Source: Capsaspora owczarzaki ATCC 30864 (taxonomy: Eukaryota > Opisthokonta > Filasterea). From it: DNA of 64,000 nucleotides. Each line of letters begins with the position of its first letter. Positions within the stretch are counted from its first letter, which is position 1. The notes beneath the pieces are model-generated. The model was not told the DNA's origin, made no database searches, and was given only the letters and a program-made list of their open reading frames with translations. Made by a program: the position numbers and the translations under genes. The stretch lies in NCBI RefSeq assembly GCF_000151315.2, contig NW_011887294.1:2359885-2423884 (forward strand), written 5' to 3'. Shown here piece after piece: positions 16,001 to 56,548 of the stretch.

Positions 16001-17667
16001 CAAAACCGCAACTTCCTCGATCACTACCTCGATGTGCCGCTGGACATGTCAAAGACCATGTTTGTCTGCACGGCCAACTCGCTCAGCACCATCAGCGCTC
16101 CCCTGCTCAACCGCATGGAGGTTGTCGAGCTGAGCGGCTATGTCTTTGAAGAGAAGCTGGCAATCGCCAAGCAGTACATTCTACCCAAAGCACGCCGTGA
16201 AGCCGGTCTGCTCGACGCTGGCGTCACCATCACCGACGAAGCACTCGCGGAGCTCGTCAACTGCTACTCGCGCGAAAATGGTGTGCGTGAGCTCCAGCGC
16301 AACATTGAAAAGGTCTACAACAAGGCCGCTTTCAACATCAAGTCACTTTTGGATGCCGGTGGCGCATCGGGCAGCCAATCGAGCACGTCTGCGACCAGCG
16401 TCGGCGGCTCGGCATCAGCGTTGTCCGCAGCTGCTGGTGAATCGTACCCACCGCCGCGTCGTTCGGTTGCTGCGGTAGCTTCCACTTCCTGGATGGCCCA
16501 ATCGGCTGCACTCGACTCTGTGTCTCGCTCTGATCTACCCTCAGAAGGCACTGCCATGCTCTCCCGGCGAGGTGGTGCAGGCAAAACCCCGACTGTCGAC
16601 ATTAGCGAAATTCCCGAGTTCAGCCCCGAGGAAAGCGTGAAACGTCAACAACAGTACGAAGTCGAACAGCAGCTTCGCGCAAAGGACCACGCCGAGTTCC
16701 TGCGCCAACGCATGTCCAAGCTTCCTGCCATTGTCATCACACCTGAGAACCTAGCAGACTTTATTGGCCCTGCTCGTTTCGACCGCCTCGAGACGTTGTT
16801 CGAGGTCAACCCTGTTGGTGTTGTGACTGGTCTTGCTTATACTGAGATGGGTAGGTTTCCATTTGTGCTTTTGGCATTTTCTTGCTTTTCTTTCTTGCTT
16901 TTCTTTCTTGCTTTTTTTTTTCTTTCTTTTCTTGTTGAACCTCAAGATTCACTGACTGATTTTGGCTTTTCTGCTCCTTTGATGTCCGCTTGCATTTGCA
17001 ACGCTGTCGTGATTTTTGCTCAGGCGGCGCGGCGTTGCCCATGGAAGCAGTCGTCACTCGGATTCACGAAGAATCCGGCAAGAGCTCGCTCGTGGTGACG
17101 GGTCAACTTGGCGACGTCATGTCTGAAAGCACAAAGGTTGCGCACTCGTTCGCCAAATCGTTCATGGTTCGCCACTTCCCCTCGAACACGGCTTTGCAAC
17201 GATCAGACATTCACCTGCACGCGCCTTCTGGCGCCATCAAGAAGGACGGCCCCTCGGCCGGCATTGTGCTTGCCTCCATGCTCCTGTCCATTGCCCTCGA
17301 CACTCCAGTACCGAGCAAGTTTGCCCTTTCGGGAGAGTTGATTGTAACGGGCAAGGTTATGGCCGTTGGCGGACTCAAAGAAAAGCTCGTCGGCGCTTCA
17401 CGCACGCAGGCCACGCATATCGTCTTCCCTCACGCTTGCTACGCGCAGTTCATGATGGTGCCCGAGTTTTTGCGCAACCGATTCACTGTTTCCTTTGTCA
17501 AGTCGTACGATGACGTGTTTTTGTTGCTCTTCCCCGAGCACGCGTCCAAGGTCTTCCCCGACCGCGATGCGAGCACTATTCTGACCATCCCCGCCAAGCC
17601 TGTCGCGGTTGCTTCAGCTGCACCCGCACATACCGTCCCAGAGGCAGCGGCACCGTCCGTGGTGTAA
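13072..17667 (+). CDS. LONP1: Mitochondrial Lon protease
   Basis: Exons 13072-13590, 14101-14468, 14606-15062, 15248-15435, 15577-16850 and 17024-17667 join in phase to 1149 residues. The first ATG gives [12 protein letters not shown], an Arg/Ser/Ala-rich mitochondrial presequence. Exons 2-3 are the N-terminal substrate-binding region, exon 4 the helical linker ending [11 protein letters not shown]. Exon 5 is the AAA+ module with Walker [10 protein letters not shown] (about 559), Walker [10 protein letters not shown] and sensor region. Exon 6 is the peptidase with the Ser of KDGPSAG (about 1011) and the Lys of LKEKLVGAS. Lon degrades oxidised and unassembled matrix proteins and binds mtDNA. 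A Ser-rich insert of about 100 residues separates the AAA lid from the protease domain. It is divergent from the myotubularin gene, with about 335 bp between. Confidence 0.95.
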
Positions 17668-23581: not shown

Positions 23582-26500
23582 TTACTTGTGCTTGTTGTAG
23601 AACTTCTTGTTCAGCAAGAACAGCAGCAAGTTGACGTTGACCTTTGCATTGAAAAGCTTCATGACAGCAACGCCGTCATACTGCAGCTGCAGCAAGTCCT
23701 CGAGGTGGAGCTCCATGTCGTCTTGCTTGACGCCCATGAACGATGCAGACACTTCGAAAACACCCACCTCGTTGGAGGAAATGGTGAGCTTGACAGTGCC
23801 CCAGCTATTTGGAAAAAACAAAACACAAACGGGCAAGGCACAAAAAAAAAAAGTGAGCACTAATCCATACACGGGAATGCGCAGCGCAGCAATAAAGTTT
23901 GCAAAAAAAAACCACAAACCTGCTCTCTGGGACGCCCTCGAGCTCCAAAATAATGCCCTTCTCCTTCAAACGCTTAGCAGTGTACGAATGGGTGCCGAAC
24001 TGGTGACCAGCAAGATCGACCTTCTTGGAGAACAGAGCACGGAAACCACGGCGCCTGCAAACAATAACAATAACAACAAGAGGACCCAGTCAGCAAAAAC
24101 AAAACAAGATAAGAAACGACAAATCAAAAGACAACACTTTGCACACAACAGAGAGACAACAAAAACATACCGTGGCTTGACACCCTTGGCCATGTTCTCC
24201 ATGCATCGCTTAATGTACTCGTGGAACGAGTCGGATTGCTGCTCAAAGTACTTGCCCTTCTCCTCAAGACTGGCGGCAGTCTTGCGGAACTTGGAAAGCT
24301 CTTCCTTGCGCAACTTGCGGTAAGCGTGCTGGTTGCGAATGTCCTGTGATGGGCCAAAAAAAAAAGTAGAGAAAAGGAGGTTAGTCGAAGAAAGAAAAAA
24401 AAAAGACAAACACCAAAGGGAAAAACCACATTCGACACCAACCCAACAGTCAACAAACCTTGGCAATCGCGTTGAGCAAGTCTTGGTAATCGTTCTTGGA
24501 CGAAACAAGCCCAGCCTTCTCGAGAGCAGCCACGTTGGACAAAACCTTCTTCTTCATCTCGCTGAGAGTGAGGCCAGCGTCCATGTCCTTCAGGACAGTG
24601 GAGCGACGCTTGCGCTCTTCCTCGGTCTCTGTCTTTTCGAGACGCTCGCGCTGGGCGCGCTGCTGGATGGTGTACTGCATGTGGTGCTCCTCCTGCTCTT
24701 CGGAGGCGGGAGTGTTGAGAATGGCAGCCAGCGTCTTGCCTTGTTGCCAGCGGACAATGTTGACGACAAGGTGCTTGGTGCGCACAAAGAGGGCACGGAC
24801 ATCAGAGTCGTCGCCTTCGGGCAGCGCAAAGCGGTTGGTAAGGGTGAGCGAGATGTCGCCAAAGGCCTCCGCATTGCTCTCCTCGCCTTCGCCAAACTCG
24901 GGAGCGGGGCCAAGCTCCTTCATGATGACGCGCAGCGGGTCCTCGGCTGTGGGGGCAAGCTCGGCAAGGCTGTCCTCGATGAGCTTGTGCGTCGAGTAGA
25001 TTTCCTTGACGGAAATGTAAATGACTGGCTTGGCACGCATGGTGAGGTCGGAATACTCGTCAATAATAAAGTGTTCGGCAGCCTCGGGCACGGTGGAGGC
25101 TTGCTCAAAGTACTTTTTGAAAATCTCATAGCCCTCCAGCATGAAGGGGTTGAGGGTGGCCAAGTAGTCGTACGCGTCACGGAAGGTGGTGCGGCTGGCC
25201 ATGAACTGGAGCATCTTGGCAACCTCACCAAGGTTGCGACGCTGGTTGGTCGAAAGCAACTCTTGCACGGCAACGTCAACAACGTCAAAGGCATCCGGAG
25301 CGACGATGGCCGGGTTCATGTAACGGTAGTACACGAGGTTGCCAATAATCTTGGTGATCTCCTCGCTCGGCAGGTCGGGGAACTTGGAGTGCAAGACCTT
25401 GCGCAGTTGCATGGCAATGTAGCGGATACCGTACGGCAGGCGGGGCAGCGCACCAACGATCGCGTTTTGGAACTTGGACGTGATGGCCTTGAGGTGGTCG
25501 AGGTGCTGCTTGAACGTCTCCTGGACGTACTGGTGCTCGAGGGCTTGCTCGTTGGTCACGTCGTACGGGAGCTCGGAGGCCTTGCCGGTTTCAATTTCCG
25601 TCTTGTTAATCCACGCCTTGTAGATGGCAATGGGCGACGTGTTCAGGTTGAGGTCGGGGTTGTCAAGAATCTCCTTGATGAGCGGCTGGAGCAGCTCGCG
25701 CAAGTAGAGGCGCTCGCGAGCGCCACGGTTGTACTGGACGACCATCTTGATGACGGTGGGGTTGCCACGAATAAAGTCGCTCAGCTCGGTGACACGCTCC
25801 ATTTCCTCCACAATGGCCTGTTGGAAGAGCTGAAGCATCAAAAACTCTTCGCGGGCGTTCTGGGCAAAGTTGTACAGGGTGAAGATGACATTCTCCATAA
25901 ACTTGGACGTCTTGGTTTGGGGCATGACGTAGATGAGCTTGGCGAGGTAGTGCGGCTTGGTCTGGAGAAGGTAGAAGAGGTGCTGGTACGATTCGAGGCG
26001 CGTGCGGTTGTCCTTGGACAGGGCCTTGAGACCGGCAGAGTTGTTGGCGTCAACCTCCTGGCGCTTCTTGAGCTTCTTGGACTGCTTGACAACGTCATCG
26101 AGGTTGATGGCGTTCTTGACGAGCAGACCAATCTTGATGTCCATGACGTTGAGTTCCTTCTCGAGCGTCTGGTTGTCACGGATGAGCAGGACAACCTTTG
26201 CACGCAGACGCTGGAGCTCGAGCTCCTCGGAAAAGTCCAAGTCGGACTGATCGAGCAGGTGCAGGAACTTTTTCAGCGTCGTGGCGGGCACGTTCGCGTT
26301 CTTGAGCAAGTCGCGGAAGACGCGGCGGGCAAGGATTCCACGCCACCAGGCCTGGATCTTGACGGCAGCCTTGCTGTTGTCGCGGAAGTACTCGAGGCGG
26401 CGGTTGAACTTGCGGCGCTGCAGGAAGCCGCGGACAAGTGCCTGGATCCGGATGGCAGCGTCAACCTGCGAGTTGAGGAAGGCAAGGCGGTCGAGGTAGG

Positions 26501-29500
26501 CCTTGCGCTGCTTGCGCGCGCGGTACCAAGCCTGGATGCGGATGATGGCAGCCAGGTTGTTGTTCCAGTGCGTCTTCTGGTCGTTGAACTTTTTGCGCTC
26601 GAGGAAGCCGCGAATGCCAGCCTGGCCAGTGATGATGTGCTTCTCGTTGGCCTTGAGATAGTCTTCACGCTCGCGAATCTTGTTCGTTTCAACAATGACG
26701 TGCTGAATCTCTTCTTGGGTGAGCTCGCCAGACGACTTGCTCGCCTTGGCGGCGGCAGCAGCGTGGGCAGCCTTGGAGGCGTGCTCGTTCTTGGCGGCCG
26801 ACGCAGCCTCCGAAGCGAGCGTGGCGTTGGTGCCAGCAGCGAACGCGGCAGCACTGGCAGCGGATGCCTTTGCGGCAGCAGCTTCGGCAGCAGCAGCAGC
26901 TTCGGCAGCAGCAGCAGCTTCGGCAGCGGCGGCGGCAGCGGTGGCAACAGCGTTCTCGCGCTCCTCGCCTTCGGTGGCCTCGGCGGTGGCAAGAGCGGCA
27001 GCAGTGGCGGCGGCGGCAGTCTGAGCGGCAGAGCTTTCGGCAGCGGCCTCGTTGGCAGCAGCGTGTGCGGCGGCGCTGGTGGCAGCGGCAGCGGCAGCGA
27101 CTTGCTCGGCAGCCTGGACGTGGTCGTCCGACAGCTGGTCGACCGACTTGGCAGGTGCAATCGAGGCACCGCCATGGGCAGCCTTCTCAGCCTTGGCGGC
27201 AACGAGCGCGGGCAGGTACGAGCTGGCATACTCGGCCTTGATCGAGACCAGCTTGGCGTGGGGATTGACCAGCGCGGCAGACAGGCCCTGCTCATCGCGG
27301 GCGTCAATGGCAGCGTTGATGGCAGCGATCGCCTGCTGGTGGTGAACATCGAGGATGACTTCTTGGATTTGGCTCTTGGTGAGCAGCTTGTCGTACACGT
27401 CCTGCGAGGCAGTGTCGGCACCCTCGGCGCCCTGCTTCTGGTCGTACGCATCCGCCTTGGCCTTCTTGGAGGCAAACAGCGCATCCTGGTACTCTTGTTG
27501 CCAGCGCTCCTCGGTGCCCTCAATGTTGGCGGCGCCGTTTTGAAGGGCGTGGAATGTGTCTGGGGCGACCTGCTTGTCGACAGCCTCGTTGATGGCAATG
27601 ATGGCAGCGTGCATGGCAGCGTCGTCTTCGGTCATTTCCTTGGCGAGGATGCCGCCAATCTTGCCAAAGCTGGGCATTTCAATGCCATACTCGGACAGCG
27701 CCTTGTTCATGGCGCTAATCTCCTCCTCGGTGAACTGGGCCTTGCCGACAAGATCAAGAATCTTTGGCGCAATGCCCTTGCGGTACAAGAAGTGGCTCAG
27801 CGCGTGGATGCAGTAAATGACCTTGGGCAGGTTCTTCTTGTCGTACAAATCGGGAGTGGTTGGGTAGAACAGCTTGGGCAAGCCCACTGCTGCCATTCCG
27901 TTAAACCAGTGGTTGATGTTGTCTGTATGGCGGAACTTGAGGCCTTGGTTCTGCACACCCAAAAAAAAAACCAGCCGCAAAACAAAACAAAAAAAAGACA
28001 AGAGGACAACGCAAATGAGTTTGTTTCAAAATGGGCAGATTCTCGCCTCCCCCCCCCTTTTTTTTTGTTTGTTTGTTTGTTCGTTTGTGCTCCATACCTT
28101 GTACACCTCTTGGTCTGCATCGTAAATCTTCTTTGGCTTGGAGCCTTCGGGCGCAAAGAACTGAGCGAGTTTGCAGAGAATGACGCCGTTGCGCAGGTTC
28201 TCTTCGAGCTCGATGGTTGCAGGCAGCTCCTCGCGGATGCATGCTTCCATCCACCTGCGGATTGCGGCAAAGTGAGCGCGCAATAGAGCAAACCGAGAAC
28301 AAAAGGAGAAGAACAAGGGAGAAGAAAAGGAGAAAAAAAAAAAAAGATTGTCCTTGTTTGAAAGAAATCTGCTTACTGTTTGGCTTCTTGGAGATGGCAA
28401 AGGTACTCGTAGGCGACGAGCGACGTGCGCTGCTCGTCCATCCACTGGCCCGAGCCGGCGTTGGAGGCCTCCTCGTCCTTCTTGATGAGCTTGCGAGACT
28501 CTGCAGCCAAAAGCAACGCAAAAAAGCAAAAAAGCAATGCAAAGCAAAAAAAAAAAAAAAAAAAATCAGTTGGAATGACTCAAAAAAAAAAAAGCAAAAG
28601 GGTTTGCGTTTTGCATTGTGAGTGTGAGTGTGTGAGTGTGTGTGTGTGGCTGACTGACAGACTGGCGCACATGCACAGTTGCCGCCGATATCAAGCAAAG
28701 CGACGCCCGTTGAATGACGAAGAGCAACCAGGACAAAGATTGAACAAAAAAAAAAAAAAAAAAAAAAAGGAAGAAAATTTCAAAAAAAAAAAAAGGCTTT
28801 CCATTTTTAAAAAAAAAATCAAAAAAAAAAAGCAAAGGAAAAAAAAAACGCAGTTGAAAAACTGACAATGTCGCAAGCGACGCTTTTCTGTTCACGTTTG
28901 ACGCTCGTCGCACGTCGCATTGGAAGCGAAGCGCGTCAGTGCAAGTAAACAATGTCAGCGCACGCAACAGCCGAGCGACGAGACGCGCGGAAGAGCAAAA
29001 CGCAAACGCCCTCTCAAAACGAGAAAAAAAAAAACGAAATGGAATGGAGAAACGTTTTGATTTTAAAATTTGAAAAAAAAAAAGCGAAAAAGAAAAAGAG
29101 GAAAAAAGACGAGTTGCTACGATCGACTAACGGAGCCAAAGTACCAAAACCCGAGTTGGAATGATGGATGAAAGCAAAAAAAAAAAAAAAAAAAAAAAAC
29201 CGCAGTCGCAAGAGCTAGACCGCAGTCGTGTGCGTGTCTGTGGGCGGAATTTGGTGCATCCGCGCTTTCCAAGCCACGCGATCGCGTCCGTTCACGCCTC
29301 ACACCAACGGGGGCTCAGCCGACGGGAGCGGCGTGACCGACAAGCAACAGAGCCAAGAGAACGCGAATGCGAAGGAAATGGGAAAAAGGGAAAACGAAGA
29401 AAAATCGAAAAATCGAAAAATGCATTGTTCGATCAAGACGTTTTGCCAGGCTCGCTCACTTTGCTCTTGCCGTGGGCTCAGTTGCTCCACTGTCCCAGCT

Positions 29501-36732: not shown

Positions 36733-39084
36733 TCAAATCTCGTCATTGAGAGACGCAGCAAAATCCAGAGCATCATTGTCTTCATCACCAAAGGCAGGCG
36801 CAGAATCAATCAAGTTGGCCCGACTCAAGCCCCAGAATCGGCGAGGCTGCAGATGCGGCTGCGTTGCAGTGTAGTGCCAGCCAATGTGCGTGTAGCAGCC
36901 CGAGCAGATGGCAATCTGCCACGCGTAGCCCGGAAACCACGTGTCCTGCAGCGAGGGCTGACCGACCAAGTTCAGTGCCTGTGCGGTAAAGCAGGTGATG
37001 GTGTCGTGGACGACGCCAAACGAGTTGACAAACGCGTTGGCAAATCCAGCAGACGACATGCCAACCACGGCACGCAACGACGAGATTTCACGGAGGCAGC
37101 GGGAGCAGCACAGCGGTGCCAGGTTTGCTATGACATCAATCTCCTTGCGCAGCCGTTCAACCACAGTGTCAATCTTCTGGAGCGTTTGCTGCGTTTCTGG
37201 GCTGACTGGCAAGTTGCTGGCGAGCCAATACGAGAAGGCGATGGGATTTTCTGGAATTGACATGTTGGCGAGCCGGCTGTGATGGCGCTGCTGGTTAGTA
37301 GCACTACCAGCGCTCGTGTCTGATTCCCGCCCAAGAAAATTCTGCGAGTTTGCCTCGCCTCTAGTTTGTCGATTCCCTGATGAGGTTGCGGTCGACGTGA
37401 GTGCTTCCGGCTCGAAATCCGCCACAAGAAGGGCGAGGGCACGATCACGCAGCACATAGGGATCGTAGTACCGCGTGACCCAGGCTGGCCAGTACGAAAT
37501 GCTGGCGACAGGGGCCGATGGTTTCCGCCACGACTGCATCACTTGGGCCAGAACGGGGTCATCCCGACCATCCGTCGTGGTGCAAGACGACGGCACGATT
37601 GCGGTGCCATCACCAGTAATGCGACCTTGAGACACGCTCGGCTCGGTTTGCATCACATCGCCATCGTTCGATGCAAGCAGAGAGGCCGCTTGGGCGGCTG
37701 GTAGACGGGACGAAGGCGAGGCAACCATGGCGTGGAACGGGATGAGATTGGGCGTGGTTCGTGGTAAGCCACCACCAATGGAGTAGCGCAGGGCAGCAGG
37801 TCGGAACGAGAGCTGCGACACCGGGTAGCACGCAGGCTCGCCCTCGTCAAGAATGACCACGTTCGCGTCTGTTCCATCCGTTGGATCCTGCCCTTGGTGG
37901 AACTGGGCAGCAGAGGGATAATGCGAGACAATGCGGAAACGATAGCGGCCTTGGGCGACAATCGTGACGCGTCCAGCGTCGCGGTTGCGGATGGAGATGA
38001 TTTCAGCCGCAACGCCTTGGGCGATGCCGCGATTGGCGTTGTTGTTGTTGCGGTGCGCGAGATCTGATGTGTGGCAAAGCCCGATTATCCGCGAGCCCTG
38101 CATGGCCCGGTTGATCGCAGCGAGTTGGTGTTGCATGAAAAAGTGCAGCGGCGTCGTGCGTCCGGGAAAGAACGAAATGTTCGACAGGTACAAGATGGGG
38201 AGTTGGGTGGTCTGCCCGGGCTCCAGGATGGCGCGGTGGTGGACGTCCTCCACATCGCCCAGATACTCGTGCAGTACTGGTCGTGTTGTATCAAACGTGA
38301 TTGACCGATGCATTCTGCGCCGTCTGGGGCGCTCGCGCACCCGAGCCAGCGATCGAGAGACTCTGTCCACTTGTGGTTGACTGCCAGTGTCGGTACCATC
38401 TTGACCATCATGCAATGCCGGTTCACCATCATCATTATCATGGTCATGGTCATGGTCATCGTCATCATCGCCTGAGCTTGAGCTGTCTGAGGGGCGTCGG
38501 CCCGTCTCTGTGTTTCGCTGGGCCCGTGCGATGCGCGTTGCAAACGTTCCGACAATGCCTTGCATGATTTGCAGTATGTTACGCTGCTGGACGAGCCTCG
38601 CCTGCTCCTGCTCGCTGCCAGCCAGCTGAGCCAGCAGCGTGTCCAGTTGCGCGTTCCAGCGCTGTTGCTGCTGCAGCTCGTCTGCGGCTTCCCCACCGCC
38701 ATCACCGCCATCAGCAGCAGCACGGGCAGCATCAGCACGGGCCTCGACCTCGGCCACGGCGGCCACCAGCCTCACGTACGGGTTGTGGGGCTGTCGCTCG
38801 GCCTCGTCTTGGCCGCCAACTTGCTCGTCGCCTTCGCTCACCGTCAAGAACTGATCATCATCGTCGTCATCATCATCATCGTCGTCGTCATTGCTATCAT
38901 TATGGTCATCATGATCGTCGTCGTCGGTCCACTCGTCGTCGTCGTCGTCGTCGTCGTCGCCCTGCTGAGGACTTTGCTCTGGCGTTGTCCTCGTCCTCGC
39001 GCTCGTCGTCTCGGTCTCCAAGACCTCGCTGTCGGGCACATGCAAGTCCTGATCGCCGTCAAACCCAGTGCGATGCGACTCCAT
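36733..39084 (-). CDS. CRBN: Cereblon (CRL4 E3 ligase substrate receptor)
   Basis: A single exon encodes 783 residues from the ATG at 39084, which has a good context (GCCAGATGG). The first 270 residues are acidic and low-complexity with long Asp runs, then an Arg-rich patch. The LON-like domain begins near 290 (LPILYLSNISFFPGRTTPLHFF). It leads through PAWVTRYYD and NPIAFSYWLASNLPV to the CULT domain (about 650-765): CCSRC, HDTITCF, LNLVGQPS, WFPGYAWQIAICSGC, HIGWHYTAT, FWGLSRANL. The four Zn cysteines and the three pocket tryptophans are present. Human cereblon (442 residues) recruits substrates, including cyclic-imide degrons, to CUL4-DDB1. The extra length is nearly all the disordered N-terminus. 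It is divergent from the gene at 39338. Confidence 0.95.
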   Translation of the reverse strand: MESHRTGFDGDQDLHVPDSEVLETETTSARTRTTPEQSPQQGDDDDDDDDEWTDDDDHDDHNDSNDDDDDDDDDDDDQFLTVSEGDEQVGGQDEAERQPHNPYVRLVAAVAEVEARADAARAAADGGDGGGEAADELQQQQRWNAQLDTLLAQLAGSEQEQARLVQQRNILQIMQGIVGTFATRIARAQRNTETGRRPSDSSSSGDDDDDHDHDHDNDDGEPALHDGQDGTDTGSQPQVDRVSRSLARVRERPRRRRMHRSITFDTTRPVLHEYLGDVEDVHHRAILEPGQTTQLPILYLSNISFFPGRTTPLHFFMQHQLAAINRAMQGSRIIGLCHTSDLAHRNNNNANRGIAQGVAAEIISIRNRDAGRVTIVAQGRYRFRIVSHYPSAAQFHQGQDPTDGTDANVVILDEGEPACYPVSQLSFRPAALRYSIGGGLPRTTPNLIPFHAMVASPSSRLPAAQAASLLASNDGDVMQTEPSVSQGRITGDGTAIVPSSCTTTDGRDDPVLAQVMQSWRKPSAPVASISYWPAWVTRYYDPYVLRDRALALLVADFEPEALTSTATSSGNRQTRGEANSQNFLGRESDTSAGSATNQQRHHSRLANMSIPENPIAFSYWLASNLPVSPETQQTLQKIDTVVERLRKEIDVIANLAPLCCSRCLREISSLRAVVGMSSAGFANAFVNSFGVVHDTITCFTAQALNLVGQPSLQDTWFPGYAWQIAICSGCYTHIGWHYTATQPHLQPRRFWGLSRANLIDSAPAFGDEDNDALDFAASLNDEI

Positions 39085-39337
39085 CTGCCAGGCTCTTCTA
39101 TGTGTGTGTTTGATAGGAAGAGCTGTCAAAACGAAACAAAAAAGAAGACTGAGACCAAAAACAAACAAAAAAACCAGAATCTCAGAAACAAAACAAAAAC
39201 AAAATCAAGTCAAATAGCCTTGTATCGTTGCTTGACTCTTATTGCATCTTCGAGTCTGCCATCACATCTAGCTATGCTATATGGATATAGATAGATACAG
39301 ATAGAAGTTCAGTCTATGTACGCCTGTTACAACACAG

Positions 39338-40022: not shown

Positions 40023-40454
40023 GCAGCTGCTTGTCTTGGGCCGCAAAAAAGTCGCGCGAAGCAGGCTCGTTATCCAGTTCAATAGAGGGAGAGCCAAGGG
40101 GAGCCAAGGAGAGGAGGCTGCCTCGACGCAAGTGCCAGATCAAAAAGTTTCAAGCACACTCGTTCGCTTTTTGCGACCGAGCTTTCCGACCACCACCGCG
40201 TGCTGTATCGATGATTGCCAAGCAAGTTAGCTGAAACACGTTCTGTCGTTCAGCGCCGAGTCTGCACCAACCGCCCCCCCAAATCGACCCTCTGGATGTT
40301 GCAAACTCTCGCTCCATCCATCTCCCAACCCTGCTTCCCTCGCCACTCGCCGCGCCAATGTCAAAGTGCTTTCTACTACAGTATTGATTGATTTTCGTGC
40401 GACATTTTGTTTACGCTCAATCCACCTCTATCCACTCCAATTTCAATACAAAAA

Positions 40455-43400
40455 ATGGCTGCCGTCGAGCAGTCTGAGCAACGCCGACAACGACGCCGAC
40501 GAGGACCTTGTTCGCTCGCTTCAGCGTCCGACTCTGAGCTCATGCCATCGATGCTGAGATTGAGGCTGAGACTGATGGGTACCACGGCATTGCTGCTCAT
40601 GCTGCTGCTCATGCTGCTGCTGGTGCTGGCAGACCAGGCACGGGCCGACGCCCCGCCGGCGCACCGACGCCTGCCGCGCATCCAGTGGGCGCAGAATGAA
40701 GCGCGCTTGTTTGTGACGCTGCAGATGGAAGGCGAGATGGTCGGCGACCCGCAGATCAGGCTCAACGAGACACACTTTGCAGTCGAGGCGACGACGCTCA
40801 AGAGCAAGGCATCCTCACCACCCACAAGTGGCGCAGGTGCAGCCGCAGTCAAGTCCATGCCAGAACTCGCAGAGGCTGATCAGAGCGATCAGGCCGTGGA
40901 ATCGTCCCGGCGGAACACCAAGGAACAGCAGCAGGTTCGTCCGCGTCCACAAGCACCGGCACAGGATTGCACAAACGGGCCCTCGAGGACCAATGGAACC
41001 ATTACGTGCTGGAAGTCGAGCTGCGCGAAGATATCGTGCCGTCCAAGAGCAAGTGGGCGCGAGCTGCAGACGGAGGCATTCGTCTGACGCTGGTCAAATT
41101 GTACCCGCACGAATTCGATCGCCTGCTCAAGGACGAAGCCCCGTTGCGCAAGCTGATCTCGATCGACTGGCGGCGCTGGAACTTTGTGGCGGATCTCAGC
41201 AGCGAGTTTGATGCATTCGAGGCCAGTGCGTTTGCAAGGCGACGGCTTGTTACAGACACCTCTCGCGACGACGACGACGACGACAACGGAAGTGACGACG
41301 GAAGTGACGACGGCGGCGGCAACGCAGCGCTCACACGCAAGCAGCGTCTTGCTCTCGAATCATACAAGAACGACTTTCAACGCAGCACGGATGACGATGA
41401 TGACGATGACGATGACAATGATTCTGACTACGGCCACAGGTCCAAGACCCGCGAGCAGCTCATTGTAGCGTCGCGGGATGCCAGCCAAGATGCAGTGGAC
41501 TATCACGCTTTGGTTTACACATCGTTCCCGCATGTGATGCAGCTCGGTGCGGGCAACTTTTCAGATACGCTCGATTCCGCCAACGTGGTGGTTGTTCACG
41601 TCTCGTATCCATGGTGCAAGTCCTGTCGCTACTTTGAGCACGAGTTTTTGCATGCTGCCGAGCGCGTCTACAGACGAGTGGAGCCGCAGCAGCGGCAGCA
41701 CACACATGCTCCTCTCGATTCCTCAGATCAGGACGCTACCGACGCCCAGGATTCCCGACCATCTTTATTTGCTTTTGGTCGCATTGATGCACGCGAGGAG
41801 CGAGAGTTGGGACTGCGCTATGGCGCTCAGTGCAGTGTGATTTGCGAGTTTCACCTCTTCCGCGCCGGCAGCTTGGCAGCCGTCTACCATGGCATCAGTG
41901 CAGAGGACCAGATGACAAAGTTTATTCAGCGTCACATGGGCCCTTCTGTTGTCCAGATCAGCGCAGCTCAAGACCTCGATGCTCTCATGCTTGCTCACGC
42001 GACGAGCACGACTCCCGCTTCTGCCCATGCCCACGTTCTTGCCGCACCTGCTGCTTCTGCCATGGTGTTGTTTCTCCGCGGTTCTACTCAGGAGCCGGCG
42101 TCCTCGGGAGGAGACATTTCCGAGCTGCTACCAACGCTGCCCATTCTCCAACGACAAGCTCTGTCCGAGTTTGTCGCGTTCGCAGACGCCCACCGTGACG
42201 ACTTCACTTTCGGTTTTGTGAGATTGCCTCAGGTAGGTCGTGAGCTACTTGGAGGGCAACGCATCCGACCGTCAAACACCACCGCATCCTTCAACGACGC
42301 TGAGGACTGGGACGCGCCCGGCTTGCTGGAAGCGTTTGAAGCAGACATTCCATTGCTCGTGGCCTTCCATCATGCATTCGACTGTCGTGAACGCTCCTTG
42401 TGCTTTAGCACGCACTCCACCAACAGTGCGAATCGCACTCCAGGAAGCAAGCAACCGTGTGTTTACGCAGAGACGCTCTCGGAGGCTGCGCAACAGCTAT
42501 TCGTCCTCGACCGCTACCCTCTGCTTGTTCAACGCGATGTTGGTATCGACCGCTACCACCGTCGAAACAACTTTACCGTCGCGTCACTCTTTGTTTGCAG
42601 CTTGAGCGACTTGTCATCCGTGTTGATTCCGCGAGACGGGCGTGACGCGCATGTCACAATTCCGCTCGGTCTCGCTGTGCGTCAAGTTGCGGATCAACTC
42701 CGGCACAAAGGGCTCATGTTTGTCGTGGAGCACGGGCCGGTTGTTCGCGAACTGCTCGTCGTCCATGGTTTGGTGTACAGCGACGCGCCAGTTGTGGCCG
42801 ACGTGCCTCTGGCCGGACTGACTTTGCCAGCCTTCTCTTGCGCCCTTGTCAACGACACATTCCGGGACATTGAGTCGCAGAAGTCCGCTCCTCTGTTGGC
42901 CGAGGATGCCTTTCCTCGATTCGGCCTCGTGCCTGATTCTGAACTCGCATCGCAGCTCTCACAAGAAAGCATGTTGCAACACAGTCTGGCGGTTGTGGAA
43001 GGACGAGCGATGCGCACGTACAAGTCCGAATCCCCAAACACTGTCACAGAAAACGCGCACATGCTGCACCGCGTCACTGCAGCCTCGTTTGATCGCATTT
43101 GCCGCAACCCAACGAATGACGTGCTTTTGGAGATTTACCATCCTTTGGCCCAAAATCATGCCATCATCCAGCGTGGTCTCGAGGCCCTGTCGCGCGTTGC
43201 GCACCGTCACTTGCCAAGCCTGGTTGTTGCTCAGATGGATGCCTCCAAGAACTTTGTTCCGCCAGCGTTTCGACCGCTTCCAACCGCTCATCAGTCAGAG
43301 GAGCTGTCCGTGGAAGACGGCAACGCCACGCAACACGCATACCCCATCCTCGTCTTGTTCCCCGCTCATGCCTCTGGCGTGGACGTGCACTACCAGTACC

Positions 43401-44047
43401 TCGGCCCGCTGTCCGCACACAATTTGCTGAATTTCGTTCATCGCCATGCCGGCCATGACTTTGAGCTGCCCGTTGCAAGTCGGGCCCTCCAGCGTGAATA
43501 CCTGGCCAAAGTGAAAAAGGAGATTCCTGTGGGAGATCTGGAGACGTACCAGCGGTCGGCGAATGCGACGCAATCTGACGAGCGCATCCGCAAGCTCAAG
43601 AAAGATTTGGAGGCCGCCGAGAAGCTGCTCGGTGGGCCTACCGGACTCCCGAATCCCAAGTCCAAGCGCAAATCCAAGCTTCGCAAAACGCGTCGTGCGC
43701 CAAAGGACGAGACAGTGACCTCGCCACTGCCCGACACTACTCGCGTCGTTGAAGTCGCTTTTGATACAAATCCGCCACCGCCGCCGCGTCGGCGCGACGG
43801 TCAAGAGGCTGCGATAGCTGCCGCTCGAGGTTTTGGCTTTATGCCTGATGACTTCCAGGCGGGACATCCGGACATTCCTGCAAATGTGCTCGATCGATTG
43901 CAGCAGTGGAATGCGCACAGCCACACCGATGAAGATGGCGAAGTGCGCCACTCGTTCACCCATGCCTACACGGCTGAACGCCAACCAAAGTCGTCAGACG
44001 AAGGCGATTCTAGCGCGTCCGACAATGCACAACCTCAAGCGTTATAA
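40455..44047 (+). CDS. Membrane-anchored CS-domain and thioredoxin-fold fusion protein
   Basis: The start at 40455 (AAAATGGCT) gives a basic N-terminus, then a long hydrophobic Leu/Met segment (about 36-58) that acts as signal or anchor. A p23/CS domain follows: PRIQWAQNEARLFVTLQM before the join and WNHYVLEVELREDI, GIRLTLVKL and LISIDWRRWNF after it. After an acidic Asp-rich linker comes a thioredoxin-like region with YPWCKSC, then a long segment with further thioredoxin-like folds lacking CXXC, a Lys-rich coiled coil and a disordered tail. About 1154-1164 residues. The two frames join by a weak intron from 40837 to 40934 or 40964 (donor GTGCAG), or there is an indel. Known CS domains are HSP90 co-chaperone modules; a luminal chaperone/redox role is inference. 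Confidence 0.75.
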
Positions 44048-44277: not shown

Positions 44278-45379
44278 CTACTGACGCGGTCGCTTGGCTG
44301 CTCGGGAATCTGAAGGGTCATTGCTAAACGATCGTTTGGGTCGTAGCCAAGGCGGCGGTGGAAGGTGATGTGTGGTTGGTGGTGGAATGAACGGCGGTCT
44401 TGGCGGCAGGCCTGGTGGCATGATGAAAGGCGGGGCGAACGGAGATAGCAACCATGGTGGAGGAAGTGGTATCGCTGGCATCACTGGCACAGCTTCAGAT
44501 TGGTAAGCTGGAGGAGGAACTGTATTCAACTCGGGGCCCGCGTCTTCAGTCGTCGAGAGGGAAGAGCTGGTTGGCGCTGTCGAGATCGTGGGTGGAACGA
44601 GTACAGGCGTAGCTTCATTCACTTGAGGCGATGGCGGCGGGTGAAATCGCAGCCTCTCGCGGTGGCGAAACACTGCCATCGATTGTTTGACTTCGGGAGG
44701 AAAGACGACGCCCGCAGGCTCTAGTAGTGCCATTAGAGGAACAAACTGAGCCTCATTCGTCAGGTTGAGAAATGTATATGCGAGTCCCGCGCTTTGAGAA
44801 CGCCAAAGACCGGAATTGGGCCGGGGGAGCGTGGTCTGCACGCGCCGCGTCGCCCGACCAATGTGGTGAATGTACGCATCAATGGAACGAGGGAAGTCAA
44901 GATTGATCACACTGCCGACACTGCCAAGTGTCAACCCACGGCCGGCAATACCGCCTGTAGCCACGAGAATGGGAAACTCGCCTGCGACAAATCGTGCCAT
45001 GACGGCGTTTCGCTCGTCCTGCGTGCGCTCTGACGAGACATAGTCGCACTCTGTGGCGCAGCGCTTGATGATGACCGGAGGCAAGGCCTTTGCGGTGGCC
45101 AGCGAGTTGACCAGCACGAGCACGGGAGGTCGATAGTGCTGCTCGGCATTCAGGAGCCGGCAGAGCGTGTTTGGCTTGGATTTCTCTTCAACCCACATCA
45201 ACACTTGCTTGATTTCATCCGCTGCAATTGCTGGTGTTCCAACAGCCAGATGCCAAAGTGTTGGGACTGGCCTTTGACGAGAGCCGTAGATTTGCTGAAG
45301 GATTTTGAGGCACAAGCTCGTGGCGAGGTTGGTCAGTGTGGCCGATGTGGCGAGAAGCTGAAAATGCCAGCTGGCTTCT

Positions 45380-45442
<63 letters not shown>

Positions 45443-46644
45443 GATAGACTGGGGGTGACTGCATGCTGCTGCTGCGCCTGAAAAGAGCTGCCAGCGTGAA
45501 AGACCAGGTCTTGCACGACGCGAAGCACCTGCGTCCGAAAATCGCCCAGTGCAAGTGCATCGACTTCGTCCAAGATGAGCACACGCAGCTGATCGAACGC
45601 TAGACTCACACCACCGCCTCGGGGATGCGCCAGAATTTCCATCAGTCGACCTGGCGTTGCAACAACTATCGCAACAGCTTGCGACAGACGGTGGAGTTGA
45701 GGCGGGAGAGGAAAGCCACCGGCCAGCAAGGCAGTCCGCAGATTGGGAATGCCTTCAGCAAGCCGTTTGATGTTGTCTTGTATTTGCACGCACAGTTCGC
45801 GTGTGGGGCTGAGCACAAGAACCGATGGATGTGATCCAGGCTGGGAGGCTGACGGCGAGTGCGACGCCAATGCCACAGCGTGGGCGATTGCAACCAACGC
45901 CAGGCTCAGTGTCTTTCCAGACCCCGTGCTTGCTGTGACCACCATGGAGTGCGGCGCCCCGTTCAAGGTGTTGTGCTGAATGGTCAAAGCGCGCTCACAG
46001 GGCGAGATCGCTGTGAGTGCCAGCGGAAGCAATTGCTTTTGCACCAACGAGGGCAGATTGCACCCCGAGCGATACAAGTTATCCAGCAGTTTGTCTGGCA
46101 GCACCGAGTCCAGGTCTGCAAACGCATCGACTGGCGGGACGTCAGGCAGCGGCGGCAGTGTGGTTGATTCCCCAGCGCCGATCGCTGTGATGGTCACCCC
46201 GAGGCGCGCCCGGAGCTGTTCAATGCTAGCATGCGCCTGGTGACTATGCGCCTGGGCTTCAGTGTTGGCGGCAGTCGCCTGACTCGCACTGGCACTGGGA
46301 TGGCACGGCCTTGTCGACTCTGGCTCCTTGTTCCACCGCGCACCCGCAACGGCAGTGGCCTTGCACTCCATGCTGCACACGTCTTGGTCTGTCTGGTCGC
46401 AAATGTACTCGCCGTAGCGTCCGCAGACGGCACAGACGGGCTCTCCAGGCCGAGCTGCTCGCTGGTCGACGCTCCTCTCGACCACGTCCTGCTCGTCCTG
46501 CTCGTCCTCGTTCTCGTCCTCCTCTGCGTCCTGCGCTTGGTGCGGTTCTGCCTCGCAATAGTGCTCGCGTGGTCCGCTCGTGGTGCCGCGGTCGGGCGCT
46601 CCGTCTCGACCTCGTCTGGTCACCGCTTGGCTCGGCTCGTCCAT
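44278..46644 (-). CDS. DDX59: DEAD-box RNA helicase DDX59 with zf-HIT
   Basis: A single exon encodes 788 residues from MDEPSQAVTR. An HIT-type zinc finger (CAVCGRYGEYICDQTDQD then VCSMEC) is diagnostic for DDX59. The helicase core follows: Q-motif LPSLVQKQLLPLAL, motif I ASTGSGKT, Ia SPTRELCVQ, Ib TPGRLME, III TSATLTN, V RGLTLGSVGSVINLDFP, VI HHIGRATRR. Motif II reads LDEVDALAL, so DEVD replaces DEAD. An Asn/Ser-rich insert from a GTT/GCT repeat sits between motifs II and III. The C-terminus is Pro-rich with an Arg-rich end. It shares a short divergent promoter region (about 170 bp) with the next gene. Confidence 0.93.
45382..45435. repeat. Coding GTT/GCT triplet repeat (poly-Asn/Ser)
   Basis: Thirteen GTT units followed by GCT units on the plus strand encode poly-Asn and poly-Ser on the minus strand, inside DDX59. 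Such pure runs are prone to length change. Confidence 0.9.
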
Positions 46645-46811
46645 TGCTGCAGTCGCATCTCGCACAACGATGAGAACTCAGACTGAGCTCTTGTTAACAA
46701 CATGTGACGAGAATGAGAATGAGAATCAGAACAAAAGGCACAAACACAAACAGGAAAAAAAAGGCGCCAAAAACTCAGTCTCCAAATCGCTGAGAATTAC
46801 CAAGTTTGGAC

Positions 46812-51780: not shown

Positions 51781-54700
51781 ATGGCTCGCATGTGTCTGCC
51801 ACGCGCGGCGGCGGTGCTTGTGCAGGTCGTCGCCGTCGCTTTGGCCTTGAGCACAATGCTCGCTGCTCCTTCTGTTTCTGCAGCGACGACGAGCGGCTGC
51901 GGCGCTGCGACCTCCGCGACCGTCTTCCGCGCGGTGACTGTGAACACTGTCAGCAATGAGTTCCAGAGCACGCCGTCCGTCTCCGGCAGCGAGCACGGTA
52001 CGTCTCTTCCATCCCACCCGCATAACTCAATCAACCATACCGCTGCTCCCACTCTTCCTTCCATTCCAGCGTCCATTCCACACCTCGCCTCGCATCCCGC
52101 TTCTATATGCCTATGTGTGTATGTGTGTATGTGTGTGGCTGTGTGTGGATGTGTGTGGCTGTGCGTTGGTCGTTCGGTCCGTCAATCAAAAACTGTCAAT
52201 GAAGAAGCAACTCTTTCGGATTTTTTTTTCTCTTTTTCTTTTTTTCTTTTGGTATTATTTTGGATTTTTGGATTTTTTAATTTTTTTAATTTTGGTTTTT
52301 GATTTGTTTCTGAGATGATTGTTATTTGTTCGGTTGTTTCATTCTTTCTGGATTTTCTGGATTTTTTCTTTCGTTTGGGGTCAGAAAACCCCCCCCCCAA
52401 TGCAATTTCACTGCTTTGATAAAACGGGTGTTCGAAAGCACAACAAAACAAACAAACTCAGACAATCACTAAAACAATCACAATGAAACCAAAAGACTAC
52501 AAAAAACAAAACAAAACGAAAGGCAGCTCTGCGCAGAGTTGCATCGAAATTGCGATAACAATACTGACTGACTGACTGTCTGTTTTGAATTTCTGACACA
52601 AACTTGAACTCCCGACCAAGTGCGCGGAAGCTTGAGCCAGATCACGCCGAGAACCCCGATTGTGGACTTTGGAAACGCATCGAGCGTGCGCTTCTCGCTT
52701 TTGCCAGCGAATGGTAGCCGGTTTATGGCCGAGCGCACGCTCAACATGGATTCGTTCCAGTTCATCATTGACGAAACGTACGTCGCCTACCGCAACAACT
52801 GCTTGCCCAACCCGTGCTTGAACGGCGGCCAGTGTGTCGAAGGCGTCAATCAATTCCGGTGCATCTGCCCGGCCACTGCCACCGGCACGACCTGCCAGCT
52901 GGTGTACTCGGCCGTGGTCAACGCGACCACCTGTCCGACGGCGCAGCAGTTCTTTACCAACACCAAGACCAAAGCCATCATTGTGGGCAATTTTTTCAAC
53001 TACACCATGACCCCTGGCGTCGCCCCAACCGCTGCCGTCGTGCTGACGTTTGCCAGCTCGAACACCTCCGTTGCCACCGTGCAGCCAAGCACCTACACCA
53101 TTCCCGTGGGATCGATCGTGCCAGTCAACATTTCCGTCTACGGCGTCGTGCCGGGCAGCATTAACATTTCAGTCACCATCTCGTCGCTCGATCCGTTGTG
53201 GAATAGCACGGCCGTGCCGAGAACCCAGCTGTCCGTCTTTGCCGTCAACACGACCATCCCAAACAACCTGGTGAACGGCACCAACACCACTTCGCCGACC
53301 GTGTACGTGTGCTGTGATCCACAGCTCAACCCTTGCCTCAATGGCGGCTCTTGCGTTGCCCGCGCCGACCGTCGCACCTACCAGTGCACCTGCCCACCGA
53401 GCTTCACGGGTCTGCACTGCGGAACGCCCGTTTGGCTCGTCCCAACCTACTACCCAAAGTACCAAGGCGCGGACAATGTTTCTGCGGACGTGTGTGTTTC
53501 CTTTGACGGCCTTGTCGGTCCGCCCCCCGAGTACAGGACAAACAACGTTGGCTTTTCACTGAACGGAATTTACATTCGCATGGCCATGTCGCTGAACTTT
53601 GTCAAGCGCGACACGTCCGAGCGCAAGGGTATTTCGTTCACCGCCATGCACATCACGCTCACTCCCCGCATCCCGCTGATGCGCAACATTACAAAGGCTG
53701 TTGTCACCACTGTGACGAATACGACCACCAACGAAACAACGACCATCACCACGAACGTGAATGTCCCTCTGCCACCCACCTACTATGAGCGCTGGATTGG
53801 AACGTCGTACTTTGATGGCAGCACCCCCAACCTGCGCGCCGACCAAATGACCCCGTTCCTCTACTTTTTACCCGACTCCATCACCTGGCAGTCGCAAGTG
53901 ACGCGTGATAGCCCAAAGCCGGTCGCCTTGGGCCAGGCTTTTCCCGACCGACTGACCCAGTCTCTCACGCCGACAGGTCCCGGTCAAGAGGCGTACGTTT
54001 CTTCCATCTCACTGGAGCGCGGCCTCATTCAGCTGCCACGCTGGCGCGGTATTGACACGCCTCAGCTGTTCAACTATGCGCAAGCTGTGGCGCAGTGCGC
54101 TGCGTTGCCCTCCGCGTCGGAGGCCTATCCGTACCATGTCTGCTCTCAAGCCGAGCTGGCTGCCACGTCCGCGCGTCTCAACTTTTCGTCCTGTGATGCT
54201 GGTTGGCTCTCTGACACGACCACCGTGATGGTGTCGAACGGCGCTGGTGGCTTTGATGCCGTCGCGCGACGACTCGCCGGGTTTATCATGACGTACGTCG
54301 ACCCAGCTTGCGGAAACGCCACCGGGTTCTTTGGCATGGACGCCACGACCAATCCTGCCGGCACTGGGTACTTTGAGGAGTCGACCACATACCGCTCCGT
54401 GTTTTGCTGTGCCGTCTCTCCCGTGGTCGATCTTGGCTACTACATTTCGACCTCGTATCGTCTGGTTGCGCCCCAAAACCACATGTTTGGTCTCACGTTC
54501 TATCCGCAGTACACGTCACTCTCGTTGGGGTTCACCACACGCTCGCGCAACACCACGCGATTGCGACGTCGTGACCCTTCGCTGGACGTGTGCATTGCCT
54601 TTGAAGACTTTTCGTCCACCCTTCTTCCGCGAGTCACTGCCGCGTCCGGTACGCTGGATTTGGACGCCAATGTGCTGCAAATTGACGCAGATTTGACCTT

Positions 54701-56548
54701 GGTCACATCCGTCAATTTCACGTCCATGAGTGTCACCGTTTCGGGCCGTTCGCCAGTGAATTACCCGCTCTTGTCATTCAGCCTGGATGCCGGCTCGTTG
54801 GTGTTCAAGTCGACTGGCGCACTGGCGCCGGCGCACCTCTGAGTGTCTTCCCCAAGCAGCAGCTCTGTCAGCGGTCGTGCAACTCGAGCTTTGCCGCTCC
54901 TTTGGTCGTTTCTTCCTTTTCCGGCACTTTTGACGATGGTTCCGCTGGTATCGAGTACTCGAACAATCTCGCCTGTGCCTGGCGTATCGCTCCGGTTGCT
55001 GCCGAGCGTCTCACGCTTCGATTCAACTATTTGTGGACCGAGTCCAACCTGGACGTCATTGAAGTGTACGACGCTAGCACCGACGGCTCGGACGTGGGGC
55101 GGCTGCGTGGCACGTTCAGTGGCCACCAGGATGTGTCGGCGTTGGCACCGATCGTTTCGGACGGACCGGAGCTGATTCTGCGATTTACGTCCAACCCGTC
55201 GCAAACCTACCCCGGTTTCTCTGTTGCGTTCGACGGCTGCAACAGCATCAGGCGCTGCACTGGTCATGGTACTTGCAATTCTGACGGAGGTTGCACCTGC
55301 GATTACGAGTACGCCGGCCCGGAGTGCCGCTCGTGCTACCTCGGCTACAAGCCCAGTGTTCCGGACCAATGCACCGATGGCTTGCTGCGTGCCGAGTGTC
55401 AGTGCATTCTGCCTCCCAAGGACAACGGCGTTCGCGTCAAGCTTCGCATTCGCCTCGACTACAGCGAGGTCTACTCGTTTGAGCCCGCCTTCATTGCGGA
55501 TGTGGCCAACTCGCTGGATCTCGTCCCGTCGCGCATCTCGCGTGTTGTCGTCCTCTCCGTCGACAGCACTGGCTTTGCTCAGATCGAATTCTTCATTCTT
55601 CCTGGTCGTGGTCTGCGCCCGGCAGAGCGATCGACCGCGCTCACTGTGCAGTTGAACACTGAGTTTTCTGCACTCCGCACCTCGACCTGGGGCTCCAGAA
55701 TCGACCCCACCTTTGCAGCTGTGTTGGCCACTCTGGAAATGACTCAGTGCAAGGACGGAGTGTACCGCGAGAAGTGCCCTGCGCCGCTCGTGCCCAAGCC
55801 CACAGAGGAAGACACGCTTTATTTGTATGCCCTTGCTGGCTTGATTACGGGTCTGATTGTTGGCGTTCTCGGCGTTGCATATGCCATCTGGCGGCTGCGC
55901 ACTGCACAGTCGCGCCACATGCAGCGCGACGCAAAGCAGAGTTTGCAGCGCGAGCAAGATGCCCGCGAAGCCAGCGAGCAGCGCGAGCGGGAGCGTCAAG
56001 AAGCACTGGCCGAAGCAGAGCGCGCTTTTGCCGAATCGCAGAACGCCATGTCGGGCGCAGGTGTCGAGGATGTTTCGGTCAACCTCGGACCGAGTGCTCG
56101 CCCCAGCGCAGTCAGCACCACTGGCACCACGAGTGCCCAGTCGGCGTCATCGCGCGACAAGGGCGCAAGCTCGGGTCTAGGGCGTCTCTTTGGTGGCAAA
56201 AAGGCATCTGCCACTTCGTCGTCTGCGGCTCCAGCGTCGTCATCGTCGTCATCGTCCGCGGCTGCATCGACTTCCCGTCAGCCTGTCATTCCAACGGCGC
56301 TGTCCAATTCGCCCGGTGCAGACCGCCAATCGGCCGCAGCCTCAGCCAAGTACATCGAGGCCTATGAGCTCACGCCCATGTCGCCGCGCGAGAGTCTGCC
56401 CGAGTATGAACCGCGCGGCACGAGCGCTGATCCCATCATTAATCCGTTCCGAGTATCGACCGATTCCGGCGCGCCTGCAGCTCAAATGCAGCGCGGTGCT
56501 TACAAGAGCAAGGTCGTGTTTGATGCCGATTCCTCGTTGCTCATGTAA
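51781..56548 (+). CDS. EGF- and CUB-domain single-pass receptor-like protein
   Basis: Exons 51781-51997 and 52621-56548 give about 1381 residues. The start gives a signal peptide (VLVQVVAVALALSTMLAAP). EGF-like repeats lie at about 132-167 (NPCLNGGQCVEG) and 303-343 (NPCLNGGSCVAR), with Thr/Asn-rich Ig- or cadherin-like sequence between and after. A CUB domain follows (about 832-945, FSGTFDDGSAGIEYSNNLACAW to SVAFDGC), then a third EGF (RRCTGHGTCNSDGGCTCDY), a membrane-proximal domain, a membrane helix (about 1139-1163, ALAGLITGLIVGVLGVAYAIW) and a Ser-rich cytosolic tail. The frame shifts once between about 54815 and 54840; both sides are clearly coding and only one base seems missing, in a GC-rich run. 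No catalytic domain is visible. Confidence 0.85.
51998..52620 (+). other. Long intron of the EGF/CUB gene
   Basis: About 620 bp, with a TG-rich stretch (about 52111-52165) and T-rich runs. The acceptor is CGACCAAG, with little pyrimidine next to it, so the exact join is less certain than others. Confidence 0.6.

Follow-up and report, generated by a model that had tools for sequence, protein, structure and literature searches.

A predicted Capsaspora owczarzaki gene joining a p23-type CS domain to PDI-like domains behind a hydrophobic segment

We examined a stretch of 64,000 nucleotides from the genome of Capsaspora owczarzaki ATCC 30864 (contig NW_011887294.1, positions 2,359,885 to 2,423,884, hereafter the window) and, within it, a predicted gene at 40455-44047; this gene and all its features lie on the forward (+) strand. 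An initial annotation had proposed that the gene encodes one protein of about 1150 residues, in which a CS domain is fused to thioredoxin folds behind a hydrophobic segment. The proposal held, with corrections: the spliced product would have 1164 residues, and the fusion is supported by a match of the CS domain to p23 and by matches to domains of the protein disulfide isomerase (PDI) family. The order of the domains, the p23 type of the CS domain, the CXXC motif and the later PDI-like a' domain without CXXC are all apparent from the sequence.

Two open frames cover the gene, one at 40392-41087 and the other at 40880-44047 (1055 codons). Excision of a predicted intron of 98 nucleotides at 40837-40934 (GT/AG, phase 1; CAG/GTGCAG...AGCAG/G, slashes marking the exon ends) fuses both frames. 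Exon 1 (40455-40836) would encode residues 1-127 and the first base of codon 128, and thus contains the start codon, the hydrophobic segment and the beginning of the CS domain; its first ATG, at 40455, has A at -3 and G at +4. Exon 2 (40935-44047), which falls within the 1055-codon frame, would encode the remainder of the CS domain, the PDI-like part and the tail, up to the stop codon. The splice sites at 40837 and 40934 are predictions and their exact positions putative; alternative donors or acceptors nearby would yield a near-identical protein, chiefly changing a low-complexity loop.

For comparison we used other proteins of the same genome (27.46 Mb, 29 contigs), whose names here and below, namely p23 (L003), NUDC (L001), NUDCD1 (L002), GRP94 (L028), the PDI-like proteins L004, L005 and L007, ERp44, cereblon and DDX59, were read from sequence and Pfam hits and not from named records. 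The part of the CS domain encoded by exon 1 (residues 66-128) aligned to p23 with a score of 61 and the part encoded by exon 2 (residues 129-215) with a score of 54; in both cases none of 2000 shuffles scored as high. Because each exon's half of the CS domain matches p23, in order, the two frames are best read as one gene, and these matches are the best evidence for it. A frameshift or pseudogene was disfavoured by the 1055 open codons and the standard GT/AG intron.

The CS domain (residues 74-209, 40674-41179) is split by the intron and by the low-complexity loop, a Ser/Thr/Gly-rich stretch of 27 residues (117-143); its length follows from the predicted splice. The whole Pfam CS profile (PF04969, positions 1-78 of 78) matched residues 74-182 of the spliced protein with 12.8 bits (E 0.25); the excised domain scored 19.0 bits and, once the loop was removed, 23.6 bits (E 1.1e-4), the curated cut-off being 21.3 bits. 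None of four controls (three shuffles and one reversed sequence) matched CS, and the only match of the reversed control was to the unrelated DUF3828, below cut-off. Against p23, the native domain scored 80, with 35 of 105 aligned residues identical, and the loop-removed domain 90; neither score was reached in 2000 shuffles (best shuffles 55 and 56, respectively), and z-values over 1000 shuffles were 10.4 and 13.1. When two other segments of the protein were aligned to p23 as controls, 37 and 705 of 1000 shuffles, respectively, reached their scores.

A CS family search of the genome listed the NUDC-type, the NUDCD1-type and the p23 proteins. Assignment of the domain to the NUDC or NUDCD1 type was rejected, the domain being unlike the former and barely like the latter: against the NUDC-type protein 280 of 1000 shuffles reached the native score and 208 of 1000 the loop-removed one, and against the NUDCD1-type protein 89 and 37 of 1000, respectively. 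With phmmer, the loop-removed domain gave weak matches to SGT1 (E 0.11) and Sba1 (E 0.22). Judged by these alignments, in which a single p23, that of the same genome, was compared, the domain is specifically of p23 type. The CS domain of the initial annotation is supported at the level of sequence.

Particular residues are of interest for an association with Hsp90. In yeast Sba1, mutation of F121 or W124 is reported to reduce Hsp90 binding and mutation of I117 to abolish it, and the DFxxW motif is described as conserved in Sba1/p23 (PMC11053944). In alignments to Sba1 and to p23 of the genome, the sequence DWRRW (residues 205-209, 41165-41179) stands at the place of DFxxW. Sba1 I117, F121 and W124 align with I202, W206 and W209 (LISIDWRRW): the Ile and the last Trp are identical and F121 is exchanged for Trp, an aromatic swap. 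The contact residues thus leave Hsp90 binding possible without demonstrating it. More generally, the protein resembles p23/Sba1 in its p23-type CS domain, in the C-terminal D-aromatic-x-x-W strand and in an acidic stretch after the domain, and an LPxxQWAQ start is common to its CS domain and p23 of the genome. It differs in the hydrophobic segment ahead of the domain, the 27-residue loop, the fusion to PDI-like domains and the DWRRW form of the motif; p23 itself is a small cytosolic protein.

The CS domain is followed by an acidic low-complexity linker (residues 216-316, 41198-41500) with two Asp runs and a net charge of -18 over 101 residues, and then by a thioredoxin/PDI 'a' domain (residues 322-463, 41516-41941). 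PF00085 matched residues 329-375 with 23.7 bits, against a cut-off of 23.5, and the PDIA4 chain 3idv matched the domain with E 6.9e-7 over two stretches jointly (0.006 for the better single stretch). Residues 320-475 scored higher against the PDI-like proteins L004 and L007 than any of 300 shuffles, and 5 of 300 reached the score against L005. The active site CKSC (WCKSC; Cys355 and Cys358, 41615-41626) lies inside the PF00085 match, which bears out the one CXXC-containing thioredoxin domain announced at the outset. In hhalign, the match to the three PDI-like proteins ran on from 'a' into a 'b'-like domain (residues 464-564, 41942-42244), ending at about 564 (prob 94.7, P 5.7e-8; prob 0.4 for an unrelated window protein used as control); Pfam had no hit for residues 402-568 taken alone. 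The PDI-like protein L007, which ends in RDEL, has CRFS as its active site and contains poly-Gln stretches; it reads like ERp44.

The middle 251 residues (565-815, 42245-42997) matched neither Pfam nor the PDB, and hhalign of the PDI-like proteins against this region gave a prob of 2.4; the stretch could accommodate two thioredoxin-like domains or a single large one. PDI resemblance returns at residues 816-975 (42998-43477), a b'-a' junction followed by an a' domain, where PDIA3 residues 334-430, including the b'-a' linker, could be aligned. The PDIA3 a' domain 2dmm matched with E 4.5e-5, and 10 of the 14 chains listed were PDI-named. The CXXC position is occupied by HPLAQNH. For residues 828-990, none of 300 shuffles reached the score against L005 and 3 of 300 that against L004; L005 aligned over residues 802-973 with z 7.0. 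The further thioredoxin-like repeats without CXXC that had been suggested are therefore supported in the b-like and a' domains, whereas residues 565-815 match nothing. A possible short coiled coil follows (residues 1008-1028, 43574-43636), based on an uncontrolled heptad count with 75% hydrophobics at a/d in the best 28-mer. Pfam hits below cut-off to TFIIF_alpha, CDC45, PPP4R2 and Thioredoxin_2, to DUF4131 in exon 1 and to YqaJ at residues 801-990 were taken as chance.

Compared with PDI and PDIA3 (ERp57), of a-b-b'-a' architecture, the protein has a CXXC-containing a, a b-like domain, a b'-a' linker and an a' in the same order. Unlike them, it has an a' without CXXC, 251 unmatched residues in the middle, no KDEL-like end and, in addition, the CS domain and the hydrophobic segment.

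The hydrophobic segment (residues 42-58, 40578-40628) is a candidate signal anchor or signal peptide. The 19-residue Kyte-Doolittle mean peaks at 2.72 in the stretch starting at residue 40, and residues 1-41 contain 9 Lys/Arg and 4 Asp/Glu; by the positive-inside rule, the part after the segment is more likely luminal. Moreover, 10 N-x-S/T sequons occur after residue 64 where 4.0 were expected (2.5-fold; 25 of 5000 shuffles reach 10). Because N-glycosylation sequons are enriched, the CS domain is probably luminal, the excess suiting a luminal glycoprotein. An Ala-Arg-Ala ending at residue 64, before Asp65, was recognized by eye as a possible signal peptidase site, so the segment could be an anchor or a cleaved signal peptide. 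The membrane anchor first proposed thus survives as a hydrophobic segment, which may also be a cleaved signal peptide, and the luminal placement, which we infer from the sequence, is supported indirectly, by the basic N-terminus, the sequon excess and the PDI-type domains. The protein ends in PQAL. By contrast, KGEL, DHEL and RDEL are the ends of three PDI-like proteins encoded elsewhere in the genome, and the HSP90-family protein read as GRP94 ends in HRDEL; such a KDEL-like end serves ER retention in soluble members of the PDI family and is unexpected for membrane-anchored ones.

We lean, by a little, towards a membrane-targeted PDI-family oxidoreductase of the endoplasmic reticulum (ER) lumen, whose N-terminal p23-type CS module would serve GRP94, the ER Hsp90, or clients. 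The hydrophobic segment would send the protein to the ER; left uncleaved, it would also act as an anchor, with the N-terminus in the cytosol, and so explain the absence of a KDEL-like end. The p23 module would bind closed GRP94 or else non-native clients, while the lone CXXC domain would make, break or shuffle disulfides in the client so held and the PDI-like domains without CXXC would assist in holding it. Oxidoreductase and chaperone activities are predicted here from the domain content, and GRP94 binding by the CS module is conjecture. Should GRP94 be involved, the protein might be a p23-type co-chaperone in the ER lumen, the first of its kind: an anchored p23-PDI fusion coupling the GRP94 ATPase cycle to disulfide chemistry of one and the same client, an outcome that we consider improbable. 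A p23 module in one secretory-pathway protein with an oxidoreductase would open two questions to direct test: whether a p23-like factor can serve GRP94, and whether a single chain couples the holding of clients to disulfide exchange. Even without a role for GRP94, the p23 fold would be put to unusual use outside the cytosol.

Several observations weigh against an ER-luminal p23-PDI protein. The two native Pfam CS scores lie under the curated cut-off, Sba1 F121 is replaced by Trp, and a number of CS proteins do not act as Hsp90 co-chaperones. Searched with p23, the genome yielded p23 alone (one candidate scored), and the CS family search of the genome missed this locus, both of which would be explained by the intron inside the domain. 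In the a' region, 78 of 300 shuffles reached the score of residues 828-990 against L007, and the hhalign match was weak (prob 23.9, P 8.4e-4). Single-sequence AlphaFold2 models were unusable, with a mean predicted local distance difference test score of 32.0 over residues 316-1010 and 31.8 over 565-825. As for topology, the 15-residue flanks of the hydrophobic segment carry near-equal charges (3 basic and 1 acidic residues before, 3 basic and 2 acidic after), so that the orientation depends on the far N-terminus; and the Kyte-Doolittle mean over residues 674-692 is 1.79, a membrane crossing there leaving the last part of the protein in the cytosol.

Two alternatives overlap with the ER-luminal reading and are not exclusive, so that the probabilities we attach to them do not sum to one. 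The protein may be a divergent PDI in which the CS domain holds substrates or has a structural role, without link to Hsp90, a reading that overlaps in this way and that we hold possible though somewhat doubtful. Indeed, p23 has a chaperone activity of its own, and the CS domain bears a low-complexity loop. By 2016 the GRP94 co-chaperones counted were two, CNPY3 and MZB1, both dissimilar to Hsp90 co-chaperones (PMC5100913), which favours a PDI without Hsp90 link and implies that a p23-type module at GRP94 would be new. On the other side, the Hsp90-contact strand is preserved although the Pfam CS match stops short of it, at residue 182.

The main rival is a reductase of the TXNDC11 kind, TXNDC11 being the closest functional analogue that we could propose. 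The protein would then be an orthologue or functional counterpart of this type II ER membrane protein, which acts as a reductase or covalent partner of EDEM mannosidases in glycoprotein ER-associated degradation, with the CS domain as an added docking module. TXNDC11 is described as crossing the membrane once, near its N-terminus, and as carrying five thioredoxin-like domains with just one CXXC and, at its C-terminus, a coiled coil; two methionines serve as starts, and the shorter product is partly soluble (PMC7039678 and PMC4906395). Its CXXC is in Trx5 and Trx1 has a CxxS (PMC7039678). The general layout is alike: an N-terminal hydrophobic segment, a long thioredoxin-like part (residues 322-975 could hold five domains), a single CXXC, a coiled-coil-like stretch thereafter, and sequons. 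Further in-frame methionines are also found, at residues 30, 33 and 41, and the genome has GH47 mannosidases (10 matches in four places). However, the placement of the CXXC is reversed, in the first domain instead of the last, the b'-a' linker resembles PDIA3, and the coiled coil is much shorter, only about 21 residues. In the parts of PMC7039678 and PMC4906395 that describe TXNDC11 a CS domain is unmentioned, and no chain named TXNDC11 was among the PDB matches listed for the window protein; the likeness considered here is one of layout. We consider this relationship unlikely.

Lastly, that two genes are present, a small signal-bearing protein in frame 40392-41087 and a separate PDI-like gene in 40880-44047, would suit the shift of reading frame and the exon 1 frame staying open as far as 41087, but this reading was rejected as very improbable, since both halves of the CS domain match p23 in order (none of 2000 shuffles for either) and the first Met of the downstream frame is residue 329, already inside the thioredoxin domain; the separate transcripts on which the initial annotation would founder are unlikely for the same reason.

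Combination of a CS domain with the ER membrane has a precedent in HACD3 (PTPLAD1/B-ind1), which resides in the ER membrane and has a p23-like CS domain ahead of its membrane spans. In HACD3, unlike the arrangement proposed here, the CS domain is cytosolic and its partner is a 3-hydroxyacyl-CoA dehydratase; the sole PTPLA match in the genome is on another contig. Among the papers listed by literature searches on CS/p23 or Capsaspora together with thioredoxin/PDI no CS-thioredoxin fusion was seen, nor in passages of PMC7016017, most subscription papers and all eukaryotic protein databases being outside reach. We seem to have known parts in a new combination, and other genomes may contain such a fusion that has gone unnoticed. 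Relatives of exon 2 were sought in viral contigs (1 pattern match, 0 confirmed) and in genome contigs (12 pattern matches, 0 confirmed). A search of the Capsaspora genome with exon 2 (3 candidates scored) returned exon 2 itself and, with E 0.018, a match of 71 residues containing 2 stops; this search missed the PDI-like genes of the genome and was thus too insensitive to exclude distant paralogues.

The gene lies between two others on the reverse (-) strand. At 36733-39204, an open frame reads like cereblon, its LON substrate-binding domain matching PF02190 (E 3e-22) and its zinc domain, of Yippee/Mis18 type, PF03226 (E 3.2e-8). At 44278-46677, a helicase of the DEAD-box family carries a HIT zinc finger at its N-terminus (PF00270, PF00271, PF04438) and reads like DDX59; it is convergent with the CS-PDI gene, the stop codons being 231 bases apart. 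Elsewhere in the window, two open frames of 1317 and 1183 amino acids overlap on opposite strands, at 24333-28286 (+) and 24450-28001 (-), Pfam giving no match for the first of them at E 0.01. Part of a gene for a Lon-type protease lies at 15632-17098 (+), marked by AAA and Lon lid domains with a below-cut-off match to the Lon proteolytic domain, and an open frame at 52620-54842 (+) contains EGF-like domains (PF00008, E 9.8e-14).

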